The translations under genes and the position numbers were made by a program. The notes under the pieces are model-generated. The model was not told the origin of the DNA, ran no database searches, and worked only from the letters and a program-made list of their open reading frames with translations. 64,000 bases of DNA from Actinomycetota bacterium (GTDB taxonomy: Bacteria; Actinomycetota; Acidimicrobiia; Acidimicrobiales; JAJPHD01). Each line of letters starts with the position of its first letter. Position 1 is the stretch's first letter. Of this stretch, positions 27,280 to 39,480 are shown piece after piece. The DNA lies in NCBI GenBank assembly GCA_021325455.1, contig JAJPHD010000013.1, forward strand, positions 1-64,000, in the 5' to 3' direction.

Positions 27280-29367
27280 TCAGCGTAAGGCGGCCGCCAC
27301 GGCCAGGACGGCGACCAGGGCCACCAGCATGTAGGCCATGTACGCCTCCAGGCGCCCGCACTGGAGCCTTCGCACCTGGGCCACCACCCACAGGAGGCCG
27401 AGGCGGGCGGGCCGGTAGAGGTAGGTCTCGACCGGCTCGACCACCCGGGCCTGGTGCTCCAGGTGGGCGTGCCCGGGCCCCGGCGCGGCCCCAGGACCGG
27501 CCCCGGGCGGCGGGGGTGAGAGAGAGGGGGAGGCCGACGACACCAGGGCCCGCCTCGACCCCAGCACGTTGCCGAGCACGTGGCGGGCGACGTTGGCGTA
27601 GCCGAAGGCGCTGTAGCTGTCCGGTCCGCTCACCCCCCCCGTGGCCGAGCGCCAGGCCGGGACCCGCCGCACCCGGAGGAACCGGCCCCGGGACAGTGCC
27701 ATGGTGGCAAGGGTCACGACCACGAACCCGACGGGCAGGGCCACGAAGGCCCATGAGGGGGAGAGGATCGAGAACCCCTTGAAGACGGGCTGGAGGACCC
27801 AGGGCGACTTGAGGCTCTGGTCCACCAGGCCGACGGGGACCACCGGGCCCAGCCCCCGGGCCACGTAGCGGATGACGTAGGGAGCCCCGGCGGCCAGGCC
27901 CAGGCACGAGGCCGCCAGGAGGACCAGGCCGGCCCGGCCCAGGAGCCCTCCTTCGCCGGCCACCGGGGGGCGGGATCGCCCCCGGGGGCCGTCCCCACCG
28001 GAGCTCCCGAGCACCCCCAGCCCGACCAGCCGGGCGAAGGTGAGGGCGGCCACGCCGGCGGTGAGGGCCACCAGAGCCCCGCCGGCAGCCATGGACAGCC
28101 GCACCGCCAGGGAGTGCACCCGGAACTGCTGCATGAGGGCCTCCAGGACGAACCACTCGGACACGAAGCCCATCGTGGGCGGCAGGCCGGCCAGGGTCAG
28201 AGCCGAGGCGGTGAACGCGGCCGAGCTCCAGGGGTGGGTCCGCCACAGGCCCGAGAGGTGCTCCAGGCGGGAGCTCCCCCAGTCGGCCTCCATGTTGCTG
28301 GCCGCGGCGAACAGGCCCGACTTGGCCACCCCATGGGCGATGGCCTGGAGGGTGGCCGCCAGCAACCCCACCGCCACCAGGCCCGCGTGGTGGGTCGACG
28401 CCCCCGCCAGGGCCACCCCGTAGCCGACCAGGATCACGCCCCCGTTCTCCACGCTGGAGTAGGCGATGACCCGGTCCAGGTCGGACTGGACGGCGGCAAA
28501 GACCATCCCCAGCAGGGCCGTCAGCCCGCCCATGACCAGCACCAGGCAGGCCAGCCACACCGGGGGAGGTCCGAGGAGGCCGAGGAACCGCCACAGGCCG
28601 TAGAAGCCGGCGTTGACGGCCACCCCGGCCAGGGCCGCCCTGACCGGGCCGGGCGCCACGGGGTAGCCAGGGGGCATCCAGACCTGGAAGGGGACCAGAC
28701 CCACCTTGGCCCCGAACCCGCCCACGATGAGGGCGTAGGCGGCGGCCTCCACCCCGCCAGCGGGCAGGGCGTGCCAGGAGCCGAAGGCCAGCGAGTGGGT
28801 CTGGCCGGCGAGGAGCAGGAAGCCGAGCAGCAGCAGGGCTCCTCCCCCCTTCCCGATCCCCAGAGCGGCCCAGCTGGCCACTGGCTGGCTGGCCCGGGCC
28901 CGGGTCACCGCCATCAGCACGTAGAAGGCGACGGTCATCGCCTCCCAGGCGAAGAGGAAGGTGAAGGCGTCGCCGGCCACGATGACCAGAGCCACCGACC
29001 CCAGCAGGAGGGCGTAGCCGGCGCCCGCCCCCCTCCCCTGGACACGGCGTTGGGGCCCCGCCCAGCCGGCGGCCACGGCCGAGACCAGCACCCCGAGACC
29101 CGAGGTCAAGGTGAGGAACAGCCCGGCCAGGTGGTCCAGGCGGAGCGAGGTGCGTCCCAGGCCGAGAAGGTTCCCGAGGTCCACCGACTCCGCCGGGCCC
29201 ACCACCGAGAGGACCCCGGCGGCCAGGAGGGCGCAGCTCCCGGCCAGGGCGGCCAGGTAGGGAAGGGGCCTGACCCAGCGCCGCGCCGTCCCCCAGACGT
29301 GGTCGATGGCCGCCCCCAGGGCCAGCACGGCCAGGCCCACGACGAGGAGGGCTTCGCGGGGCGTCAC
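27280..29367 (-). CDS. HyfB/HycC-like antiporter-type membrane subunit
   Basis: The 695-residue protein belongs to the Mrp/NuoL-N family of proton-pumping subunits. It has about fourteen helices, the conserved FLFAWEAMTVAFYVLM helix with the key Glu, the lysine-containing helices GFGAKVGLVPFQVWMPP and AIAHGVAKSGLFAAA, and DLDRVIAYSSVENGGVI. The GTG start overlaps the upstream gene by four bases; the track ORF begins earlier in shadow sequence. It is the fifth subunit after the small subunit and resembles the HyfB position in hydrogenase-4 and in the M. tuberculosis Rv0083 locus. Confidence 0.88.
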   Translation of the reverse strand: MTPREALLVVGLAVLALGAAIDHVWGTARRWVRPLPYLAALAGSCALLAAGVLSVVGPAESVDLGNLLGLGRTSLRLDHLAGLFLTLTSGLGVLVSAVAAGWAGPQRRVQGRGAGAGYALLLGSVALVIVAGDAFTFLFAWEAMTVAFYVLMAVTRARASQPVASWAALGIGKGGGALLLLGFLLLAGQTHSLAFGSWHALPAGGVEAAAYALIVGGFGAKVGLVPFQVWMPPGYPVAPGPVRAALAGVAVNAGFYGLWRFLGLLGPPPVWLACLVLVMGGLTALLGMVFAAVQSDLDRVIAYSSVENGGVILVGYGVALAGASTHHAGLVAVGLLAATLQAIAHGVAKSGLFAAASNMEADWGSSRLEHLSGLWRTHPWSSAAFTASALTLAGLPPTMGFVSEWFVLEALMQQFRVHSLAVRLSMAAGGALVALTAGVAALTFARLVGLGVLGSSGGDGPRGRSRPPVAGEGGLLGRAGLVLLAASCLGLAAGAPYVIRYVARGLGPVVPVGLVDQSLKSPWVLQPVFKGFSILSPSWAFVALPVGFVVVTLATMALSRGRFLRVRRVPAWRSATGGVSGPDSYSAFGYANVARHVLGNVLGSRRALVSSASPSLSPPPPGAGPGAAPGPGHAHLEHQARVVEPVETYLYRPARLGLLWVVAQVRRLQCGRLEAYMAYMLVALVAVLAVAAALR

Positions 29368-30209
29368 GCCCCGCCTCCCGAGGGCAGCAGGCCGACGGCG
29401 AGCAGGATGCCGTGCAGCAGGCTGAACGGGCTGGGCGGCGAGCCCGGCACCCAAACGTCCACGGGCACCAGGTCCCCCACTCCTCCCCTGGTGGCGTACG
29501 TGGGGTGCACCAGCCCGCCGCTCACGGCGTCGGTCCCGGCCGCCACCACCACCTTGGGATCGGGCATGGCCTCCCACGTCCGGCGCAGCGGCCCCGCCAT
29601 GCCCGCCGCCCCGGCCCCCGTCACGAGCAGCAGGTCGGCGTGGCGGGGGGTGGCGGTGAAGAAGATGCCCAGGCGCTGGACGTCGTACACCGGGTTGGTG
29701 AGGGCGGCCACCTCCCATTCCTCGGAGCCGTCGGAGCCGGCATCCACGTGGCGCACGTGGATGGAGCGCCGCAGGGACCTGACCCGGCGGCCCAGCTCGG
29801 AGCGGACCTTCCCCAGCGCCTCCTCGTCGTCCTCCCCCGGAGGGACCACCAGGGCCTGCCGGGAGACGCTGGCCGTCTCGTGGTCGGGCCCGAACCGGAA
29901 CAGCTCGGGGTGGCGGGAGGTGCAGCGTCCGCACAGGATGCAGCGGCCCCGATCCAGGCGGAGCCGGCCTCCTTCCTCGCTGATGGCTCCGGTCGGGCAC
30001 ACCTCCGCCACCCCCTGGGGGGGGCTGGCCCCCTCCGCGACCGACACCGCACCCATCCATCCCGGTCCGTAGCCATCGGGGCGGCGGGGGTAGGCGGTGG
30101 TGACGATCCCTTCCCGCAGGCCGCGCAGCACCCACATGTGGGCCTGGCCCGGGATGTGGCGGAACGGCTCCAGCGACCGCCGCACCCTGTCCGGGACCCC
30201 CCTACCCAT
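29364..30209 (-). CDS. Ferredoxin-NuoB/HycG fusion subunit lacking the proximal-cluster cysteines
   Basis: 281 residues. The N-terminal part has one ferredoxin-type site (C71 in VCPTGAI, C90xxC93xxC96 in CILCGRC). The C-terminal half aligns by eye with the NuoB/HycG small subunit: RHVDAGS..., NPVYDVQRLGIFFTATPRHADLLLVTG, PKVVVAAG, PVDVWVPGSPPSP. All four ligands of the usual proximal [4Fe-4S] cluster are gone: the CNGCE-like segment reads SDGSEEWE, GDCA reads GTDA, and PGCPP reads PGSPP. So this subunit cannot hold the normal cluster. The start at 30209 forms TGATG with the upstream stop. Confidence 0.85.
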   Translation of the reverse strand: MGRGVPDRVRRSLEPFRHIPGQAHMWVLRGLREGIVTTAYPRRPDGYGPGWMGAVSVAEGASPPQGVAEVCPTGAISEEGGRLRLDRGRCILCGRCTSRHPELFRFGPDHETASVSRQALVVPPGEDDEEALGKVRSELGRRVRSLRRSIHVRHVDAGSDGSEEWEVAALTNPVYDVQRLGIFFTATPRHADLLLVTGAGAAGMAGPLRRTWEAMPDPKVVVAAGTDAVSGGLVHPTYATRGGVGDLVPVDVWVPGSPPSPFSLLHGILLAVGLLPSGGGA

Positions 30210-31708
30210 CACCCGGCCACCCCGGCCACCGACAGCCCGAAGCTGGCTTCTATGAACACGAAGTCCGTGTAGATGTCCCCCCGGAAGGCCTGGGCGAAGA
30301 GGGCCAGGTTGTGGAAGGCCGGGCACCTCGGCCTGGCCGCCCGGAGGCGGCCGTCCTCCACCTCCACGAGGTAGAGCAGCTCGCCCTGGGGGGCCTCGGC
30401 CCAGCCCAGGGCGGTGCCGTCAGGAGGGTCGAACTGCGCCCGCCAGGGCCCGTCCCCGGCCCCCGCCAGCCCCTCCAGGGCCTGGCGGGCCAGGGAGAAG
30501 GAGCGAGCCACCTCCGCCACCCGCACCTCCTGGCGGGCCAGGGCGTCCCCCCTCTCCCGGGGCTCGACGGCCTGGGCGCCCAGGCGGGGATAGGCGCCGT
30601 AGGGGCGGGCCACCCTGAGGTCCTCGGCCAGCCCGGATGCCCGCCCTATGGGCCCGACGGCGCCGTGGGCCCCGGCCACCTCTGGGGGCAGCACACCGGT
30701 CCCCCGCAGCCGGTCCAGGAAGGAAGGGGTCTCCATCAAGAGCCTGATGTCGGCCGTGGCCCCCTTGTCGATCCGGGCCAGCTCGGCCAGGGCCTGGGCC
30801 GCCCCCAGGGAGGGCGGGCCCGAGACCCCCCCCGGCACGACCACCCCCCGGCCGAAGCGGTGCCCGCACAGGCGGGCCTGCAGGCGCAGCACCCGTTCCT
30901 TGTGGAGGCTCAGGCGGGCGTAGGCCACGGCCTGGCCCGCCCCCTCGGTGTGGCGGACCATGGAGTCCAGGTGGTTGGCCACCCTCTCCAGCTCGGCGTG
31001 CAGCACCCGGGAGAGGCCGGCCCGGGGCGGGACCTCGACCCCGGCCAGGGCCTCCAGCGCCTGGCAGTAGGCGCTGGCCTGGGCCACCGAGGTGGTCCCC
31101 TCCACCCTCTCCGCCAGGAGGACCCCGTCCCCGACAGACAGGCCACAGAAGCGCCGGGAGAGGCCCCGGTGCTTGTGGTACACGCGCGTGCGCAGGTGCG
31201 GTATCTCCTCCCCCGGCGTCTCGACCAGGTACTGGATGGCCTCGAAGACCCCGGAGCGCACCGGGCCGTAGGGGATGGTGAACAGCCCCTCGCCGCTCAC
31301 ATGGCCGGGCAGGGGCTCCTCGCTGGGGTCGAGGCAGCCGACGTCGGCCGCCGTCCCCGGGCGGGGCCGGGGCGTCCCCGGGGCCAGGGGCAGCACCAGG
31401 GGGTCGAGGCGGGGGTGCCCGAGGGGCCGGACCCCGTAGAGGTCGTGCAGCTCCCGCTCGTACCAGGTGGCCCCGGGCGTGGTAGGGGTGAGGGCCTGGT
31501 AGGCACCCACCTCGGGAGCCAGGACCTCCTCCTCCAGCCCATAGCGGCCCGGCCAGGCCAGGACGGCCCGGAGGCAGAGGGACCCGTCCGGCCGTCCGGT
31601 GGGCAGCAGGGCGGCGAAGCGGGCGCCGGCCCGGACGGCACCCGCCACCCGGGAGGCCAGCTCCTCGCCCACCAGCCCACCCCCCACCGGGGCAGCGGCC
31701 TCCCTCAT
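30209..31708 (-). CDS. HycE-like large subunit (NuoC+NuoD fusion) lacking NiFe ligands
   Basis: 499 residues. The N-terminal NuoC-like domain ends in ERELHDLYGVRPLGHPRLDPLVLP; the NuoD/HycE domain starts GEGLFTIPYGPVRSGVFEAIQYLVETPGEEI and has YHKHRGLSRRFCGL. In a hydrogenase the next residues would be CGxC and the C-terminus DPCxxC. Here the first motif reads RFCGLS (only Cys188 kept) and the end reads DFVFIEASFGLSVAG, with no cysteine. The protein therefore looks like a non-hydrogenase member of the group 4 family. It overlaps the hyfF-like gene by four bases. Confidence 0.88.
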   Translation of the reverse strand: MREAAAPVGGGLVGEELASRVAGAVRAGARFAALLPTGRPDGSLCLRAVLAWPGRYGLEEEVLAPEVGAYQALTPTTPGATWYERELHDLYGVRPLGHPRLDPLVLPLAPGTPRPRPGTAADVGCLDPSEEPLPGHVSGEGLFTIPYGPVRSGVFEAIQYLVETPGEEIPHLRTRVYHKHRGLSRRFCGLSVGDGVLLAERVEGTTSVAQASAYCQALEALAGVEVPPRAGLSRVLHAELERVANHLDSMVRHTEGAGQAVAYARLSLHKERVLRLQARLCGHRFGRGVVVPGGVSGPPSLGAAQALAELARIDKGATADIRLLMETPSFLDRLRGTGVLPPEVAGAHGAVGPIGRASGLAEDLRVARPYGAYPRLGAQAVEPRERGDALARQEVRVAEVARSFSLARQALEGLAGAGDGPWRAQFDPPDGTALGWAEAPQGELLYLVEVEDGRLRAARPRCPAFHNLALFAQAFRGDIYTDFVFIEASFGLSVAGVAG

Positions 31709-33168
31709 GGCCCCACTCCCAGCTCGCTCGCCGCCCGGGAAAGGACGTGGCTCAGCGCCGAGGGGGGATGGACCCCGAGGATGGCCAGAGCCACCAGGCC
31801 GGCTGCCATGGCGGCCACCATCCAGGCGCTCGTCTCCCCCCTGGCAACGGTGGCGCCGGCGGTGGAGCCACCGGCGGGCGTCGGCGAGGCCATGGTCCTG
31901 GTGGCCCACCAGCTGAGCCCCAGGAAGGCCAGGACCACCAGGCCCACCAGCACCGCCACCACGCCGTCGCTCGGGACCGAGAGCCCGCCGGCCACGATCA
32001 GGAACTCCGAGCGGAAGATGCCGAACGGCGGTGCCGCCGACAGGGCCAGCACGGCCAGCACCAGCATGGGCCCCGTCCAGGGGAGCACGCCGATCCCCCC
32101 CCGAATAAGGCGCAGGTCCTTGGTCCCCAGCTTGGCGAGCACGGACCCGGCGCCGAAGAAGGCCGTCCCCTTGGCGGCGCCGTGGGCCAGGACCTGGAGG
32201 AGGACCCCGACCACGGCCAGAGGGGCGGCGAAGCTCATGCCTATGGCCATGATCCCCATGTGCTCGATGCTGGAGTAGGCAAGGAGGCGCTTGAGGTCCC
32301 GCTGGCTCACCACGTACAAGGCGGCCAGGGCGAGGGAGGTGATGCCGAACCCGAGGAGCACCTCTCGGGGGAAGGCGTAGCCCACGGCGCGCCCGGTTAT
32401 CTGGAAGTAGCGCAGGATGGCGTAGAACGAGACGGCCAGCAATGCCCCCGAGAGCAGAGCGGAGACCGGGGTGGGGGCCTCGGAGTGGGCGTCGGGCAGC
32501 CAGGTGTGCACCGGCACCAGGCCCATCTTGGTCCCGAAGCCCAGCACGGCCAGGAGGTAGGCGAGCCGGACGAGACCGGGGGGCAGCCGATGGGCGACGG
32601 AAAGGAGAGGCCCTATGGCCATGTGGTAGGCGGGGCCGAGGGCGCTGGCCCCTGCGGCGTACATGGCCACCGTGCCGAACAGAGCTATCCCCAGCCCCAT
32701 GGAGGCGATGATCAGGTACTTCCAGGACGCCTCCGCCGCCCCGTCGGTGTCGTCCAGGGCCACGAGCAGGGCCGACACCACGCTGGCGATCTCGAGGGCG
32801 GCCCAGATCTCCACCAGGCTGTTGACGACGGGCGTCACGGCCATGGCCCAGCAGAACAGGTTCAGCCCTGCGTAGAGGCGCCGGGAGTAGCGGGGGTCGT
32901 GCCGCCGGCCCACGTAACCCATGGCGAACACCGCCGTCAGGGCGTAGAGGAAGGCCGTGGTGAGCAGGAACACCAACGAGAGGTCATCGGCCCGCAACCA
33001 ACCACCGAGCGCCATCTGGCTTCTCCCCCCGGCTCTTCCCACCAGGGCGAGGGAGAGGCCGAAGGTGGCTGCCCCGGCTACGACCGTGGCCCCCTGGGCC
33101 AGGCGGGTAGGGCCCCACCACGCCACCACGGCGGCCACGAGGGGGACGACCAGTATCGCCAGGAGCAT
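31705..33168 (-). CDS. HyfF-like antiporter-type membrane subunit
   Basis: 487 residues, about fourteen helices, Mrp/NuoL-M family. Key charged helices are visible: NSLVEIWAALEIASVVSALLVAL (Glu), GFGTKMGLVPVHTWLPDAHSEAPTPVSALLSG (Lys), and QVLAHGAAKGTAFFGAG. The full LPDAHSEAPTPVSALLSG motif shows this is a well-preserved pumping subunit, in contrast to the degraded soluble subunits. ATG at 33168; two bases separate the hyfE-like stop from it. Confidence 0.9.
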   Translation of the reverse strand: MLLAILVVPLVAAVVAWWGPTRLAQGATVVAGAATFGLSLALVGRAGGRSQMALGGWLRADDLSLVFLLTTAFLYALTAVFAMGYVGRRHDPRYSRRLYAGLNLFCWAMAVTPVVNSLVEIWAALEIASVVSALLVALDDTDGAAEASWKYLIIASMGLGIALFGTVAMYAAGASALGPAYHMAIGPLLSVAHRLPPGLVRLAYLLAVLGFGTKMGLVPVHTWLPDAHSEAPTPVSALLSGALLAVSFYAILRYFQITGRAVGYAFPREVLLGFGITSLALAALYVVSQRDLKRLLAYSSIEHMGIMAIGMSFAAPLAVVGVLLQVLAHGAAKGTAFFGAGSVLAKLGTKDLRLIRGGIGVLPWTGPMLVLAVLALSAAPPFGIFRSEFLIVAGGLSVPSDGVVAVLVGLVVLAFLGLSWWATRTMASPTPAGGSTAGATVARGETSAWMVAAMAAGLVALAILGVHPPSALSHVLSRAASELGVGP

Positions 33169-33170
33169 CC

Positions 33171-33860
33171 CTAGCCCCTCAGCCTGTCCAGCACTTCGGT
33201 GGAGAGGGTCCCCGTGCGGCCGTGATGGACCCGCACCAGCACGCCGAAGAAGACCACGGCCACCAGCAGGTCGAAGAAGAACGTGACCTCGGCCAGCAGA
33301 GGCAGCCGGGAGGCCAGCACCAGGCTGGCGACGGACACCCCGTTCTCCAGGGCGAAGAAGCCGATGGCCTGGGACACCACGTCAGCGCGCAGGATGACGA
33401 GGAGGAAGGCCACGAGCACGGCCGCCATGGCCAGGCCGAGGGCCGCCACCGGAAGGGTCGAGGTCACGGGAACCGCCTCCAGGATGAAGAGCCCGAAGGC
33501 CGCCACGGCCAAGGCGATGAGGGTCATGCTGGCCACCTTGAGCCGTTCGCTGCCCGCCACCTCCGTCTCCACCCCGGCCAGGAGGCGAAGGACGACGGCA
33601 GGGATCACCACGACCTTGATGAGGAACGAGATGCCCGCCACGGCGTAGGCCTCGGGGACATGGCGGAGAGCGGCCAGCAGCACGGCCAGGCCCACCACGC
33701 AAAGGGACTGGAACGCATAGAGCCGTACCTGGGTGCGGGCCAGGGCGGAGCGGAGCATGGCGAACTCGGCCAGCACCACGAGCAGGGCGATGGCATCGGC
33801 CACCCCCGAGAAGGCCGGGGGGGCAGCCAGGGTGGAGACCGCCAGGAGGGCTGGACCCAT
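33171..33860 (-). CDS. HyfE-like membrane subunit
   Basis: The 229-residue protein has about six helices and the features of HyfE/HycP: NuoK-like GFFALENGVSVASLVLASRLPLLAEVTFFFDLLVAVVFFGVLVRVHH at the C-terminus, with Glu residues in the membrane that carry protons in NuoK. The ATG at 33860 overlaps the stop of the upstream gene. Length matches the hydrogenase-4 subunit. Confidence 0.87.
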   Translation of the reverse strand: MGPALLAVSTLAAPPAFSGVADAIALLVVLAEFAMLRSALARTQVRLYAFQSLCVVGLAVLLAALRHVPEAYAVAGISFLIKVVVIPAVVLRLLAGVETEVAGSERLKVASMTLIALAVAAFGLFILEAVPVTSTLPVAALGLAMAAVLVAFLLVILRADVVSQAIGFFALENGVSVASLVLASRLPLLAEVTFFFDLLVAVVFFGVLVRVHHGRTGTLSTEVLDRLRG

Positions 33861-34816
33861 CAGGCGTGCCCCACGTAGAGGATGAGGATGGCCAGGACGG
33901 AGAGCAGGAAGGCGGCGGCCATGAACTCGGTGATCTTGAACAGGCGCAGCTTGGAGAACGAGTTGTCGATGAGGGCGAAGAGGAAGCCCACACCCAGGGC
34001 CTTGCCGAAGAAGATGGGGATGGCGAGCAGCACCGACGAGGCGTCCCGGGTGCTGGACAAGCCCCAGGGGGCGGCGAAGACGTTGATGAGCAGCACGTAG
34101 AGGATCACCTGCTTCATGGCCGATCCCCACTTGAGGAGGGCCATGGCCGCTCCGGAGTGCTCCAGGGTCCGGGCCTCGTCGATCATGCCGAACTCGAGGG
34201 TGCTGGAGTGGGTCTCCACGGGGATGCGGGCCGTGTCGGACAGCACGGCCAGGAAGAAGGCGAAGGCGGCCAGGATGTGGGAGGGGCGCACCGCCTGGCC
34301 CAGCGAGGCCCGGGCCGTGGCCGCCTCGGCGTAGGGGAGGTCCGTCGTGGTGATGATCGCCACCACGAAGGTCACGAAGAGGATGGTGGGCTCGATCAGG
34401 GCGGCGAAGGTCATGGCCCGGCTGCTGCCCAGCTGGGCGTAGGGGCCGCCGGTCTCGGCCGCCGCCACCGAGATCGAGAAGGCGGCCAGGGCGAGGAAGA
34501 AGGCACCACCCAGGATGTCCCCCATGTAGCCGAGCGGGAGGCCGAAGGTGGTGAGCTCGGGGATGAGGAGGGGGACGATCAGGTAGCAGGTGAAGGCCAC
34601 CACCGGGGCGGCCAGGAACACCCAGCTGGCCTGCTCGGGGACCAGGGTCTCCTTGCTGAAGAGCTTGGCCAGGTCATAGTACGGCTGCAGGATGCGGGGC
34701 CCACGCCGGCCCTGCAGACGCGCCTCCATGTGGGAGATGGCTCCGGAGAGGAAGGGGGCGAGGCCCACCACCATCAGGTCCTGGACCAGCTGGATCGTGT
34801 AGACAGACAGCTCCAC
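33860..34816 (-). CDS. HycD/HyfC-like (NuoH-type) membrane subunit
   Basis: 318 residues, eight helices. It is the anchor subunit of the group 4 hydrogenase/complex I family: ARLQGRRGPRILQPYYDLAKLFSKE near the N-terminus and AETGGPYAQLGSSRAMTFAALIEP plus DTARIPVETHSSTLEFGMIDEA in the loops that connect to the soluble arm. These motifs are intact. GTG start at 34816 behind GGGAGG. It is the first gene of the operon; the promoter should lie in the 190-bp gap shared with the divergent LLM gene. Confidence 0.92.
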   Translation of the reverse strand: MELSVYTIQLVQDLMVVGLAPFLSGAISHMEARLQGRRGPRILQPYYDLAKLFSKETLVPEQASWVFLAAPVVAFTCYLIVPLLIPELTTFGLPLGYMGDILGGAFFLALAAFSISVAAAETGGPYAQLGSSRAMTFAALIEPTILFVTFVVAIITTTDLPYAEAATARASLGQAVRPSHILAAFAFFLAVLSDTARIPVETHSSTLEFGMIDEARTLEHSGAAMALLKWGSAMKQVILYVLLINVFAAPWGLSSTRDASSVLLAIPIFFGKALGVGFLFALIDNSFSKLRLFKITEFMAAAFLLSVLAILILYVGHA

Positions 34817-35007
34817 CCACGCCTCCCGCTAAGGGAACACCGACTTGGGTAGAGGCCATCAGCACGCTGGCGGTTCGGGCAGAACCCACCGGAGCCTCAT
34901 CCGGTCGGGCCAGCATACCGAGGCGGGACCGGGCCGTGCGACATCGCCCCCCGGTGGCCACCTCCGGTCGTTGGCCCGGGGCCGCCCCGGGTTAGGGTCC
35001 AGGCCCC

Positions 35008-36875: not shown

Positions 36876-37472
36876 CAGTATAACGACCGGGACGCCCACT
36901 CCGACCTGAGCCGCCTGGCCCATGGCGTGGCCCGTACCGCCCGGGCGCTGCGCACCGCCCGGGGCTGGAGCCTGGATGCCCTCTCGGCCCGCTCCGGGGT
37001 GAGCAAGGGCGTACTGGTGGCCTTGGAGCAGGGCCGGGCCAACCCCAACCTGGCCACCCTGGTGCGCCTCACCGAGGCCTTCGGGGTCCCCCTCACCCAC
37101 CTGCTGCAGATGGAGGAGGAGCCGACCGTCCGCCTGGTCAGCCCCGACCAGGCGGTCGTGCTGTGGAGGGGTGAGGCCGGGGGAAGCGGCACCCTCCTGG
37201 CCGGGAGCGATCCACCTCACGGGGTGGAGGTGTGGCGCTGGGTCATGGAGCCGGGCGAGGTCAAGGTGGGAGGTGCCCATGCCCCCGGGACCCACGAGGT
37301 GGTCTCGGTGGAGAGCGGCAGGCTCACCCTGGTCGTCGACGAGGGGGCCTACGAGATCGGGGCGGGGGGGTCGGCCTCCTTCTCGGCCTGGCACGACCAC
37401 CGGTACGAGAACCAGAGCCGGCGCCAGGTGCGCTTCGTCATGGTGGTCACGGTTCCCTCGCCGGAGGGGTGA
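36873..37472 (+). CDS. XRE-family regulator with C-terminal cupin
   Basis: 199 residues: an N-terminal XRE helix-turn-helix (TARALRTARGWSLDALSARSGVSKGVLVALEQGRANPNLATLVRLTEAFGVPLTHLL) and a C-terminal cupin sensor (GGAHAPGTHEVVSVESGRLTLVVDEGAYEIGAGGSASFSAWHDHRYENQS). XRE-cupin proteins commonly sit next to the amino-acid or EamA transporter they control. The 3' end overlaps arsC by 26 bp. Confidence 0.9.
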   Translation: MQYNDRDAHSDLSRLAHGVARTARALRTARGWSLDALSARSGVSKGVLVALEQGRANPNLATLVRLTEAFGVPLTHLLQMEEEPTVRLVSPDQAVVLWRGEAGGSGTLLAGSDPPHGVEVWRWVMEPGEVKVGGAHAPGTHEVVSVESGRLTLVVDEGAYEIGAGGSASFSAWHDHRYENQSRRQVRFVMVVTVPSPEG

Positions 37473-37884
37473 CGGGTCCCGTTCCCCCGGTGAGCTGGGC
37501 CACGAGCCCCCTCACCCGTCGGTCGATCTCGTCGACGATGGGGCGGACCTGGTCGACCGGGAGGCCGGCCGGGTCCCTGAGGTCCCAGTCGAGATGCTGC
37601 GTGCCGGGGAAGACGGGGCACGTGTCGCCGCAGCCCATGGTGACGACCACATCGGCCGCTCGAGCAGCGTCCTCGGTGAGCGGTTTGGGGAACTCCTTGG
37701 AGGTGTCCAGCCCTTTCTCCTCGAGCACGGCGACGACGGAGGGATTGAGCTCTCTGGCGGGCTCTGAGCCGGCGGAGAGAACCTCGACGCGGCCGGCGGC
37801 GTGGTGGTCGAGCAGGACCTTGGCGGCCAGGCTCCGCCCCGAATTGTGGACGCAGAGGAACAGCACCACGGGCTTGGCGCTCAC
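37447..37884 (-). CDS. arsC: Arsenate reductase (LMW phosphatase type)
   Basis: 145 residues. The phosphate/arsenate loop CVHNSGRS (Cys11-Arg17) and the TMGCGDTCPVFPGTQHLDWDLRDPAG region with two more cysteines are typical of thioredoxin- or mycothiol-linked ArsC. It reduces arsenate to arsenite for Acr3. GTG start overlaps the acr3 stop by four bases; the upstream track ORF part is shadow. Last gene of the ars operon. Confidence 0.93.
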   Translation of the reverse strand: MSAKPVVLFLCVHNSGRSLAAKVLLDHHAAGRVEVLSAGSEPARELNPSVVAVLEEKGLDTSKEFPKPLTEDAARAADVVVTMGCGDTCPVFPGTQHLDWDLRDPAGLPVDQVRPIVDEIDRRVRGLVAQLTGGTGPVTPPAREP

Positions 37885-38945
37885 CGGCCGGCTCCCGCCT
37901 TGACGCTGCCAGGTCGGCGGTAGGAGCGCTGGCGTGCCCACAGGGCGACATAGACCAACGTCACGAGAACCGGGACCTCGATGAGCGGGCCGACCACCCC
38001 GGCCAGGGCCTGCCCGCTGGTGACCCCGAACACCCCGATGGCGACGGCGATGGCGAGCTCGAAGTTGTTCCCGGCAGCGGTGAAGGCCACCGTGGCAGTG
38101 CGCTCGTAGCCGAGGCCGATGGCCCGGCCCAGGAGGAACGACCCGAACCACATGATGACGAAGTAGGCCAGCAGGGGCAGGGCGATACGGGCCACGTCCC
38201 CAGGGTGGGTGGCGATGGTGTGGCCCTGGAGAGCGAAGAGGATGACGATCGTGTACAGGAGGCCATAGAGGGCGAACGGCCCCAGGCGGGGGAGCAGCCG
38301 GTTCTCGTACCAGTCCCGGCCGCGGGCCCGCTCACCGATGATGCGGGTGAGGAAGCCGGCAACCAGCGGCACGCCGAGAAAGATGCCCACGGTCCCGGCG
38401 ATGCGGCCCATGGACAGGTGCAGGCCCACCGTGGAAAGGCCGAGCCAGCCGGGAAGCACCTCGAGGTAGAAGTAGCCGAGGACGGAGAACATGAGGATCT
38501 GGAAGAGCGAGTTGAGAGCCACCAGGACCGCCGCCGCCTCCCGGTCGCCGCAGGACAGGTCGTTCCAGATGAGCACCATGGCGATGCAGCGGGCCAGGCC
38601 GACGATGATCAGCCCGGTGCGGTAGGTGGGCTGGCCGGGCAGTAGCAGCCAGGCCAGGGCGAACATGACCGCCGGGCCGACCAGCCAGTTGAGGACCAGG
38701 GACAGGGCGAGCATGCGCCGGTCCCGGGTGACGGCGCCGATCTGGCCGTAGCGGACCTTGGCCAGCACCGGGTACATCATCACCAGCAACCCGATGAATA
38801 TGGGCAGGGAGGTCCCCGATGTGACCTGGATGGCGTCGAGGTGCCTGTTGAGGCCGGGGACGGCCCGGCCGAGCCCGATGCCGGCCACCATGGCGGCGAT
38901 GATCCACACTGGCAGGAAGCGGTCGGCCAAGCGGAGATGGGCCAT
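37881..38945 (-). CDS. acr3: Arsenite efflux transporter Acr3
   Basis: 354 residues, ten helices, bile-acid/arsenite family. It holds the conserved Cys in GLARCIAMVLIWNDLSCGD and the Glu in AAGNNFELAIAVAIGVFG, both needed for arsenite transport in Acr3. ATG at 38945 gives MAHLRLADRFLPVWI, a normal N-terminus; a GTG at 39002 would add 19 residues. It lies between arsI and arsC. Confidence 0.93.
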   Translation of the reverse strand: MAHLRLADRFLPVWIIAAMVAGIGLGRAVPGLNRHLDAIQVTSGTSLPIFIGLLVMMYPVLAKVRYGQIGAVTRDRRMLALSLVLNWLVGPAVMFALAWLLLPGQPTYRTGLIIVGLARCIAMVLIWNDLSCGDREAAAVLVALNSLFQILMFSVLGYFYLEVLPGWLGLSTVGLHLSMGRIAGTVGIFLGVPLVAGFLTRIIGERARGRDWYENRLLPRLGPFALYGLLYTIVILFALQGHTIATHPGDVARIALPLLAYFVIMWFGSFLLGRAIGLGYERTATVAFTAAGNNFELAIAVAIGVFGVTSGQALAGVVGPLIEVPVLVTLVYVALWARQRSYRRPGSVKAGAGR

Positions 38946-39042
38946 CACCGGCCCCCCGGGCACGCTCCCCGGCGCCGCTCGCCGGGACACCACGTCGCTC
39001 ACGTCCGGTCCCCGCCAGCGAGGGCGGCCCTCCGAGGGAGGA

Positions 39043-39480
39043 TCAGCGGCACGAGCTGGCCCGTGCCGCTGATCCCTCCGGCTCGGGACCCGTCGTGCAG
39101 CACCCCGGCGTGTCGAGGTCGTAGAGGACCGTGTAGATCTCCCACCGCTCCCCGCCGGGGGCACGCACCCACACCTTGTCCTGGAGGGCGTAGCAGCAGG
39201 CGGTGTGCTCCTCCACCGCAGTGGGCAGGCCCTGTTCCGCCAGGCGGGCCCGAGCGCCAGCCACCTCTTCGGTCGACTCCACCTCGACGCCCAAGTGGTC
39301 GAGCGTGCCGGGCCGCCGGTCGTGGTCCTCGATCAGGACCAGCTTGAGCGGCGGCTCGCCGATGGCGAAGTTGGCATAGCCGGGCCGGCGCTTGGCCGGG
39401 GTCGTGGCGAACAGCTTGGAGTAGAAGTCGACGGCCCGGTCGAGGTCGGCCACACTGAGGGCCAGTTGCACCCGTGACAT
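39043..39480 (-). CDS. arsI: ArsI/CadI-family vicinal-oxygen-chelate protein
   Basis: 145 residues, VOC (glyoxalase) fold. The vicinal cysteines in HTACCYALQDKVWV (Cys95-Cys96) and the WEIYTVLYD segment are diagnostic for ArsI C-As lyases and the closely related CadI proteins; a second Cys pair occurs near the C-terminus (TPGCC). In an ars operon ArsI, which cleaves methylarsenite, is the more likely role. First gene of the leftward operon, divergent from arsR. Confidence 0.85.
   Translation of the reverse strand: MSRVQLALSVADLDRAVDFYSKLFATTPAKRRPGYANFAIGEPPLKLVLIEDHDRRPGTLDHLGVEVESTEEVAGARARLAEQGLPTAVEEHTACCYALQDKVWVRAPGGERWEIYTVLYDLDTPGCCTTGPEPEGSAARASSCR

Follow-up and report, generated by a model that had tools for sequence, protein, structure and literature searches.

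Complexes of the energy-converting hydrogenase-related (Ehr) branch of the complex I superfamily that lack the NiFe ligands are already known (PMC6349859, PMC10432482). In a separate literature, 'formate hydrogen lyase' has been listed with the fluoride riboswitch (crcB motif) since 2010 (Weinberg 2010, PMC2864571), and a 2024 review explains the listed genes as fermentative formate oxidation (PMC11139923). Here we describe an operon of six adjacent or overlapping open reading frames on the minus strand, at 27280-34816 of a 64,000-nucleotide stretch (the window; positions 1 to 64,000 of contig JAJPHD010000013.1, assembly GCA_021325455.1). The genome, from an Actinomycetota bacterium whose relatives point to Acidimicrobiales, is 2.95 Mb and 96% complete. 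Judged from its sequence, the operon is a member of the Ehr branch; the cysteine ligands of both the NiFe site and the proximal cluster are replaced, and a fluoride riboswitch stands ahead of the first gene. Because a fluoride-sensing switch precedes genes whose metal centres have been replaced, the complex probably serves to cope with fluoride and not to make H2. There is good support for the predicted fluoride control and for the loss of the canonical redox path, whereas the transport mechanism proposed below is one that we infer.

The NuoB-type subunit is encoded as a fusion of a ferredoxin domain with a NuoB/HycG fold (29364..30209, minus strand; an alternative start is possible at 30137). 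Its NuoB part is homologous to E. coli HycG (7z0s_G; phmmer E=1.9e-33), and the HycG/NuoB fold is kept in an AlphaFold model of the fusion (mean predicted local distance difference test score 76; Foldseek match to HycG, 7.9e-16). The four cysteines that ligate the HycG cluster are all replaced, by D161, E164, D228 and S258 (P0002 numbering, in which residues of the fusion protein are one higher than in an earlier note on this DNA). That note had claimed that the NuoB part lost all four cluster cysteines and that one ferredoxin site remains. The alignment with HycG bears out the first claim while the fold stays, and the four ferredoxin cysteines are likewise present, each with a number one higher, as C72, C91, C94 and C97. 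This set corresponds to the CP of motif one and the CxxCxxC of motif two, and by the NuoI pattern we take the remaining [4Fe-4S] cluster to be of the N6b type, adjacent to the missing N2. The earlier note had also asked whether another gene supplies a normal NuoB/HycG subunit; the genome, within its 96% completeness, yielded no gene for a hydrogenase-type NuoB/HycG. It holds elsewhere one weak NuoB-like match and one other 49-kDa subunit (contig C14), which are taken to be an ordinary complex I.

The large subunit (NuoCD/HycE-like, Ehr type; 30209..31708, minus strand; 499 aa; PF00346 and PF00329) is homologous to MbhL (6cfw_L, 1.3e-36) and HycE (7z0s_E, 1.5e-34) in phmmer comparisons. The HycE NiFe ligands C241, C244, C531 and C534 align to E203, T206, S493 and G496, leaving none of the four cysteines. 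On this point the earlier note, which had one of the four kept, does not stand: C188 (RRFCGLS), located about 15 residues upstream of the NiFe ligand motif and at no ligand position, was apparently mistaken for a ligand. Cysteines at shifted positions were considered for both soluble subunits and ruled out by the alignments with HycG and HycE. Among the 88 rows of the cysteine-free clade in the large-subunit alignment, none has a complete NiFe ligand set. HycE E193 is a conserved proton-relay glutamate (PMC9474812), and this position is kept in the window's large subunit as E156. The old NiFe pocket holds E156, E203, R151 and K179, the last two of which mark the fluoride clade: R151 is found in 88/88 cysteine-free proteins, 7/9 cysteine-containing fluoride-linked Ehr proteins and 0/12 other Ehr proteins, and K179 in 88/88, 9/9 and 2/12, respectively.

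These replacements bear directly on how such genes have been named. The best database names for the operon are hydrogenase 4 and formate hydrogenlyase subunits, and riboswitch surveys associate the crcB motif with formate hydrogen lyase (PMC2864571, PMC11139923), but with the four NiFe and four HycG ligands all replaced, it is extremely improbable that the operon encodes a genuine formate hydrogenlyase or hydrogenase-4. The formate-oxidation explanation cannot hold for these complexes, because the NiFe site is absent and the actinobacterial clade also lacks the proximal cluster. At least in this clade, the listed formate hydrogenlyase genes cannot encode that enzyme.

A scan of a genome collection gave 341 relatives, and residues were counted in the best 80, which were chosen by patterns away from the ligand positions and ranked by similarity to the query family; all 80 are from Actinomycetota. 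The first N2 ligand position is D in 80/80, the second is E in 63, D in 14, A in two and V in one, the third is D in 76 and E in four, and the fourth is S in 72, A in five and N in two, with one row cut off. Because the same kinds of residue occupy the cluster positions across these closest relatives, the replacements are not decay. A functionless, decaying operon would indeed account for the lost catalytic cysteines, but the frames stay open across a wide range of actinobacterial families (identity about 50-71%), a 31-row alignment shows many invariant columns, the replacement and ion-pathway residues are near-invariant and the riboswitch is conserved. Pseudogene decay was rejected on these grounds (open frames, conserved replacement residues, conserved riboswitch), and we give it next to no credence. 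In an even sample of Actinomycetota, 3 of 397 genomes carry the cysteine-free type at E<=1e-40, indicating that it is widespread but uncommon; carriers with strain names are Amycolatopsis orientalis, A. echigonensis, Nostocoides japonicum, Micromonospora solifontis and Streptomyces. Two loci, L039 (genome G064) and L040 (G043), have a cysteine-free complex beside a cysteine-containing Ehr complex on one contig, and in G064 there are riboswitch-like matches ahead of both.

To place the operon within Ehr, we used a quick large-subunit tree, made without bootstraps. The cysteine-free loci form one clade (Shimodaira-Hasegawa-like approximate likelihood ratio test, SH-aLRT, 100) that includes L034 and L138, both cysteine-free; L056 in the tree is HycE itself. 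The sister of the clade is a locus (G183) that keeps the CxxC pair and has Ser at the fourth ligand position, and the two together are nested among cysteine-containing Ehr proteins from Burkholderia, Caballeronia and others. The window's large subunit falls among NiFe-less Ehr proteins in this tree, and the comparison with Ehr made in the earlier note was right. Apparent intermediates in cluster loss were also seen: L139-L142 keep the CxxC pair with Ser as the fourth ligand, and L144 has Asn there. In a distant Ehr locus outside the fluoride clade, on a plasmid of Allomeiothermus silvanus (L149:8248-9018), the four NuoB cysteines are replaced by T, D, E and S; two replacements are again acidic, the loss is apparently independent, and no riboswitch was found at this locus.

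In two genomes, G039 and G085 (loci L043 and L044), the ferredoxin domain is gone as well. No plausible ferredoxin frame was found in a search of their operon regions, and these complexes appear to be free of iron-sulfur (Fe-S) clusters. The ferredoxin is central to the alternative that the complex is still an oxidoreductase, with the N6b-type cluster passing electrons from a soluble carrier to some acceptor without N2 and so driving the pump. In its favour, the ferredoxin part retains its four cysteines in all 80 relatives, and relatives within Ehr still have an N2-type cluster and are considered redox-coupled (PMC6349859). However, neither N2 nor any NiFe ligand is left, and in L043 and L044 the riboswitch and the other parts persist although the whole ferredoxin domain has been lost. 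By what is generally known of complex I, the distance separating N6b from the old active site is considered too great for electrons to tunnel usefully, and the annotated neighbourhoods of two relatives contain no dehydrogenase gene. We therefore regard an oxidoreductase as unlikely.

The riboswitch lies just outside the coordinates of the earlier note, which missed it. It is a fluoride riboswitch aptamer (crcB motif, RF01734) of an extra-hairpin variant (34847..34905, minus strand), about 30 nt upstream of the first gene; an RF01734 aptamer in the 5' leader, the mark of the fluoride riboswitch regulon, is accordingly present in the window. The full-length Rfam match at 34843-34899 has 17.6 bits (E=0.013 for a 311-bp stretch), below the gathering score of 34 yet the best of the whole genome (E=0.03). 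The hallmark of the riboswitch is GCTGATGGCCTCTAC, and the window sequence runs CCGGATGAGGCTCCGG...CGAACCGCC...GCTGATGGCCTCTACC, in which an additional hairpin separates P1 from the AACCGCC segment and would explain the weak Rfam score. As a joint MAFFT alignment of all riboswitches mixed two architectures, a covariance model (R1) was made from the Acidimicrobiales type only, using 16 sites with the window left out; it has 13 pairs, seven with compensatory changes. R1 gives the window 60.3 bits and an E-value of 2.2e-14, R1 E-values being rough. Acidimicrobiales switches (the window and those upstream of L060-L136) often fall under the Rfam gathering threshold, and RF01734 probably under-detects this extra-hairpin type.

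Across the clade, Rfam and R1 matches taken together place a switch within 300 nt of hyfC (median 40 nt) in 70 of the 75 cysteine-free loci that have at least 150 nt of upstream DNA, 16 of the 70 being R1 training sites. With the Rfam model, several sites in Actinomycetes reach 40-53 bits, and both apparently Fe-S-free members, L043 and L044, carry the switch (E about 1e-8 with R1). Taken by itself, the hallmark 15-mer is present in the 400 nt upstream of 35 of 79 loci, compared to one match in 1.26 Mb of shuffled sequence. Of the 11 Ehr control loci with hyfB first, none showed a convincing riboswitch where its operon begins.

The operon also encodes a full Hyf-type membrane arm, and all of its genes are on the minus strand, in the order HyfC/NuoH-like, HyfE-like, HyfF, large subunit, ferredoxin-NuoB/HycG fusion and HyfB. 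The HyfC/NuoH-like membrane anchor subunit (33860..34816; 318 aa, GTG start; PF00146, E=2.4e-33) conserves glutamates E142, E208, E214 and E219, and the HyfE-like membrane subunit (33171..33860; 229 aa) matches the NCBIfam hydrogenase 4 membrane subunit NF008556 (E=7.1e-20) with a score under the curated cut-off. Two antiporter-type subunits are present: the HyfF-like subunit (31705..33168; 487 aa; PF00361, E=2.8e-47; hydrogenase 4 subunit F, E=8.6e-99), which conserves E126, K214 and E388, and the HyfB-like subunit (27280..29367; about 695 aa; PF00361, E=2.1e-43; hydrogenase 4 subunit B, E=2.6e-111), which conserves E143, K222 and E405 and whose GTG start overlaps the stop codon of the preceding gene. 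The equivalents of NuoM E144, K234 and E407 are intact in both, and the antiporter Glu and Lys and the HyfC Glu residues are near 100% conserved across relatives. These family matches and conserved residues confirm the reading of six genes with a complete membrane arm and intact charged helix residues given in the earlier note. Elsewhere in the window, at 37447-39164, are probable arsenate reductase and ACR3-type arsenite transporter genes, identified by reading the sequence alone.

Genes found near the cysteine-free loci encode DUF190-like proteins (27 loci), universal stress proteins (26), MutS-like ATPases (25), CrcB-like proteins (19), dynamin-like GTPases (18) and enolase (11). The clustering behind these counts took in antisense frames, and we kept only those clusters that could be recognised from their sequences; labels such as DUF190 and CrcB rest on sequence reading and annotated examples. 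A characterised fluoride-resistance operon contains ppaC, uspA, eno, gpmA and crcB (PMC5533749), and several of the neighbour genes match fluoride operons of the literature (PMC5533749, PMC11139923). The fluoride loci L058-L137 are repeatedly flanked by genes for dynamin-like GTPases, paired MutS-like ATPases and DegV-like proteins. A plasmid of Alicyclobacillus sp. ALC3 carries a fluoride riboswitch followed by a NuoCD/HycE-like large-subunit gene on its own (L148:6818-8314); CrcB and two DUF190 genes share the island, and other hydrogenase-like subunits were not detected there.

A search of the window's own genome found no CrcB and no DUF190. Among genomes of the same order, CrcB is present in 2/12 carriers of the complex vs 21/23 non-carriers (Fisher p=2e-5, ignoring phylogeny). 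The complex could itself be a fluoride exporter that replaces CrcB/FluC, binding F- or a metal-fluoride in the old pockets and coupling its movement to H+ via the membrane arm. Consistent with this, the own genome lacks CrcB and has its best fluoride riboswitch match at this operon, CrcB is missing from 10 of the 12 same-order carriers, R151 and K179 are clade-specific, and the acidic triad could hold Mg2+, the riboswitch itself binding F- as a Mg2+ complex (PMC11139923). But many actinomycete carriers also have CrcB, some of them beside the complex, CLC proteins are present, an anion path in HyfB, HyfF or HyfC is not known, and the reading of the pockets is itself interpretive. We consider a fluoride exporter of this kind doubtful.

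The explanation that we favour, with slightly more confidence than doubt, is that the operon encodes a fluoride-induced, redox-free Ehr-branch complex that carries out H+-linked transport and so protects pH and proton-motive force. Hydrogen fluoride (HF) lowers both; among the genes linked to the riboswitch, those for Na+/H+ antiporters rank second in frequency, and these antiporters are considered to restore pH and proton-motive force after HF has entered (PMC11139923). HF would enter as a weak acid and release H+ and F- in the cytoplasm, whereupon the riboswitch would turn the operon on and the HyfB/HyfF/HyfC/HyfE membrane arm, acting as an Mrp-like H+-linked ion exchanger, would restore cytoplasmic pH and proton-motive force. 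The soluble arm would be a ligand-binding gate that carries no electrons to a catalytic site. In this gate the old NiFe pocket would have acquired R151, K179 and E203 beside the kept E156, and the old N2 pocket would be an acidic site, possibly binding metal or metal-fluoride. We hypothesize that R151, K179, E203 and E156 bind F- or a metal-fluoride. The remaining ferredoxin cluster may have a structural or a redox-sensing role, given its loss in two members. More tentatively, and with rather more doubt than confidence, the complex may be a complex-I-type machine without electron transfer, a fluoride-gated or fluoride-coupled proton/ion transporter whose metal centres were rebuilt as carboxylate and cationic sites. 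The earlier note had concluded that the pumping parts are kept, that the redox chain is gone and that a different driving reaction is needed; this is upheld and can be put more strongly, as all four NiFe ligands are lost, the clade is conserved and two members lack any Fe-S motif in the operon.

Several observations weigh against redox-free, H+-linked transport. The lysine of transmembrane helix 8 (NuoM K265) is replaced in both antiporter subunits. The soluble arm is strongly conserved and its ferredoxin cysteines are universally retained among the 80 relatives, and a plain antiporter would need neither the arm nor the cluster. In fluoride-linked relatives (Burkholderia, Caballeronia, L042) the set of four N2 cysteines is complete, which indicates that redox function is ancestral. 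In addition, the Fe-S absence in L043 and L044 is judged from the operon region alone, the CrcB anticorrelation takes no account of phylogeny, and CLC genes occur in most genomes, where some could export fluoride.

The literature searched, outside which most subscription papers lay, contains no report of a missing NiFe site in the fluoride-linked genes, of a clade without the proximal cluster or of Fe-S-free versions. The cysteine-free complex may use a categorically new mechanism. The clade provides a natural experiment on an issue central to bioenergetics: what the complex I soluble arm adds to ion translocation without electron flow. Were the complex a fluoride-gated or fluoride-coupled transporter, it would put the entire complex I architecture to a use that is ligand-driven and free of redox chemistry, and it would constitute a new class of fluoride-resistance system.

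Among known systems, Ehr complexes share with the operon's complex a HyfB/C/E/F-type membrane arm, a NuoCD-like subunit without NiFe ligands and a NuoB-like subunit. The Ehr controls, however, keep four N2-type cysteines, L149 excepted, while the window's clade has none; the N2-type cluster in the NuoB-like subunit, usual in Ehr but outside the published definition, is missing here. The gene orders also differ, Ehr operons having hyfB first and this operon having hyfC-E-F-large-FdNuoB-hyfB with a fluoride riboswitch ahead. Of the four NiFe cysteines and the four-Cys proximal [4Fe-4S] cluster in HycG that define Group 4 [NiFe]-hydrogenases, neither is present. E. coli formate hydrogenlyase-1 (FHL-1; HycBCDEFG) shares the homologous subunits HycC, D, E, F and G with the operon's complex, which differs in having no NiFe site, no proximal cluster and one cluster rather than two in the HycF-like part. 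No formate dehydrogenase partner was found in the neighbourhoods of two annotated relatives, the window and most loci not being exhaustively annotated. Respiratory complex I (Nuo) has NuoEFG and N2, whereas the operon has six genes only and its N2 ligands are gone. Mrp antiporters are a redox-free use of complex-I-type antiporter subunits. These Na+/H+ antiporters (MrpA-G) have no NuoH-like subunit and no soluble NuoCD/NuoB arm of the redox type, whereas the window's complex keeps NuoH-, NuoCD- and NuoB-like subunits.

In mycobacteria, M. tuberculosis Rv0082-Rv0087, which the earlier note had named for comparison, is annotated as HycD, HycP, HycQ, HycE and oxidoreductases (PMC6901956). A related, 51.7%-identical locus on a plasmid of M. 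branderi belongs to the cysteine-free clade, with N, D, D and A at the cluster positions. This locus (L054; Mycobacterium branderi plasmid pJCM12687, 864 kb, positions 508572-529903) is a fluoride island of several riboswitches, enolase, DUF190, UspA and the cysteine-free complex, and adjoins PE/PPE genes. A further known group is the FHL genes of the fluoride riboswitch regulon (PMC2864571, PMC11139923). The literature takes them as formate-oxidising, whereas no fluoride-linked member examined here keeps the NiFe ligand set; like the genes of this operon, they are hydrogenase-4/FHL-like genes behind the switch, and they and this operon are probably the same family.

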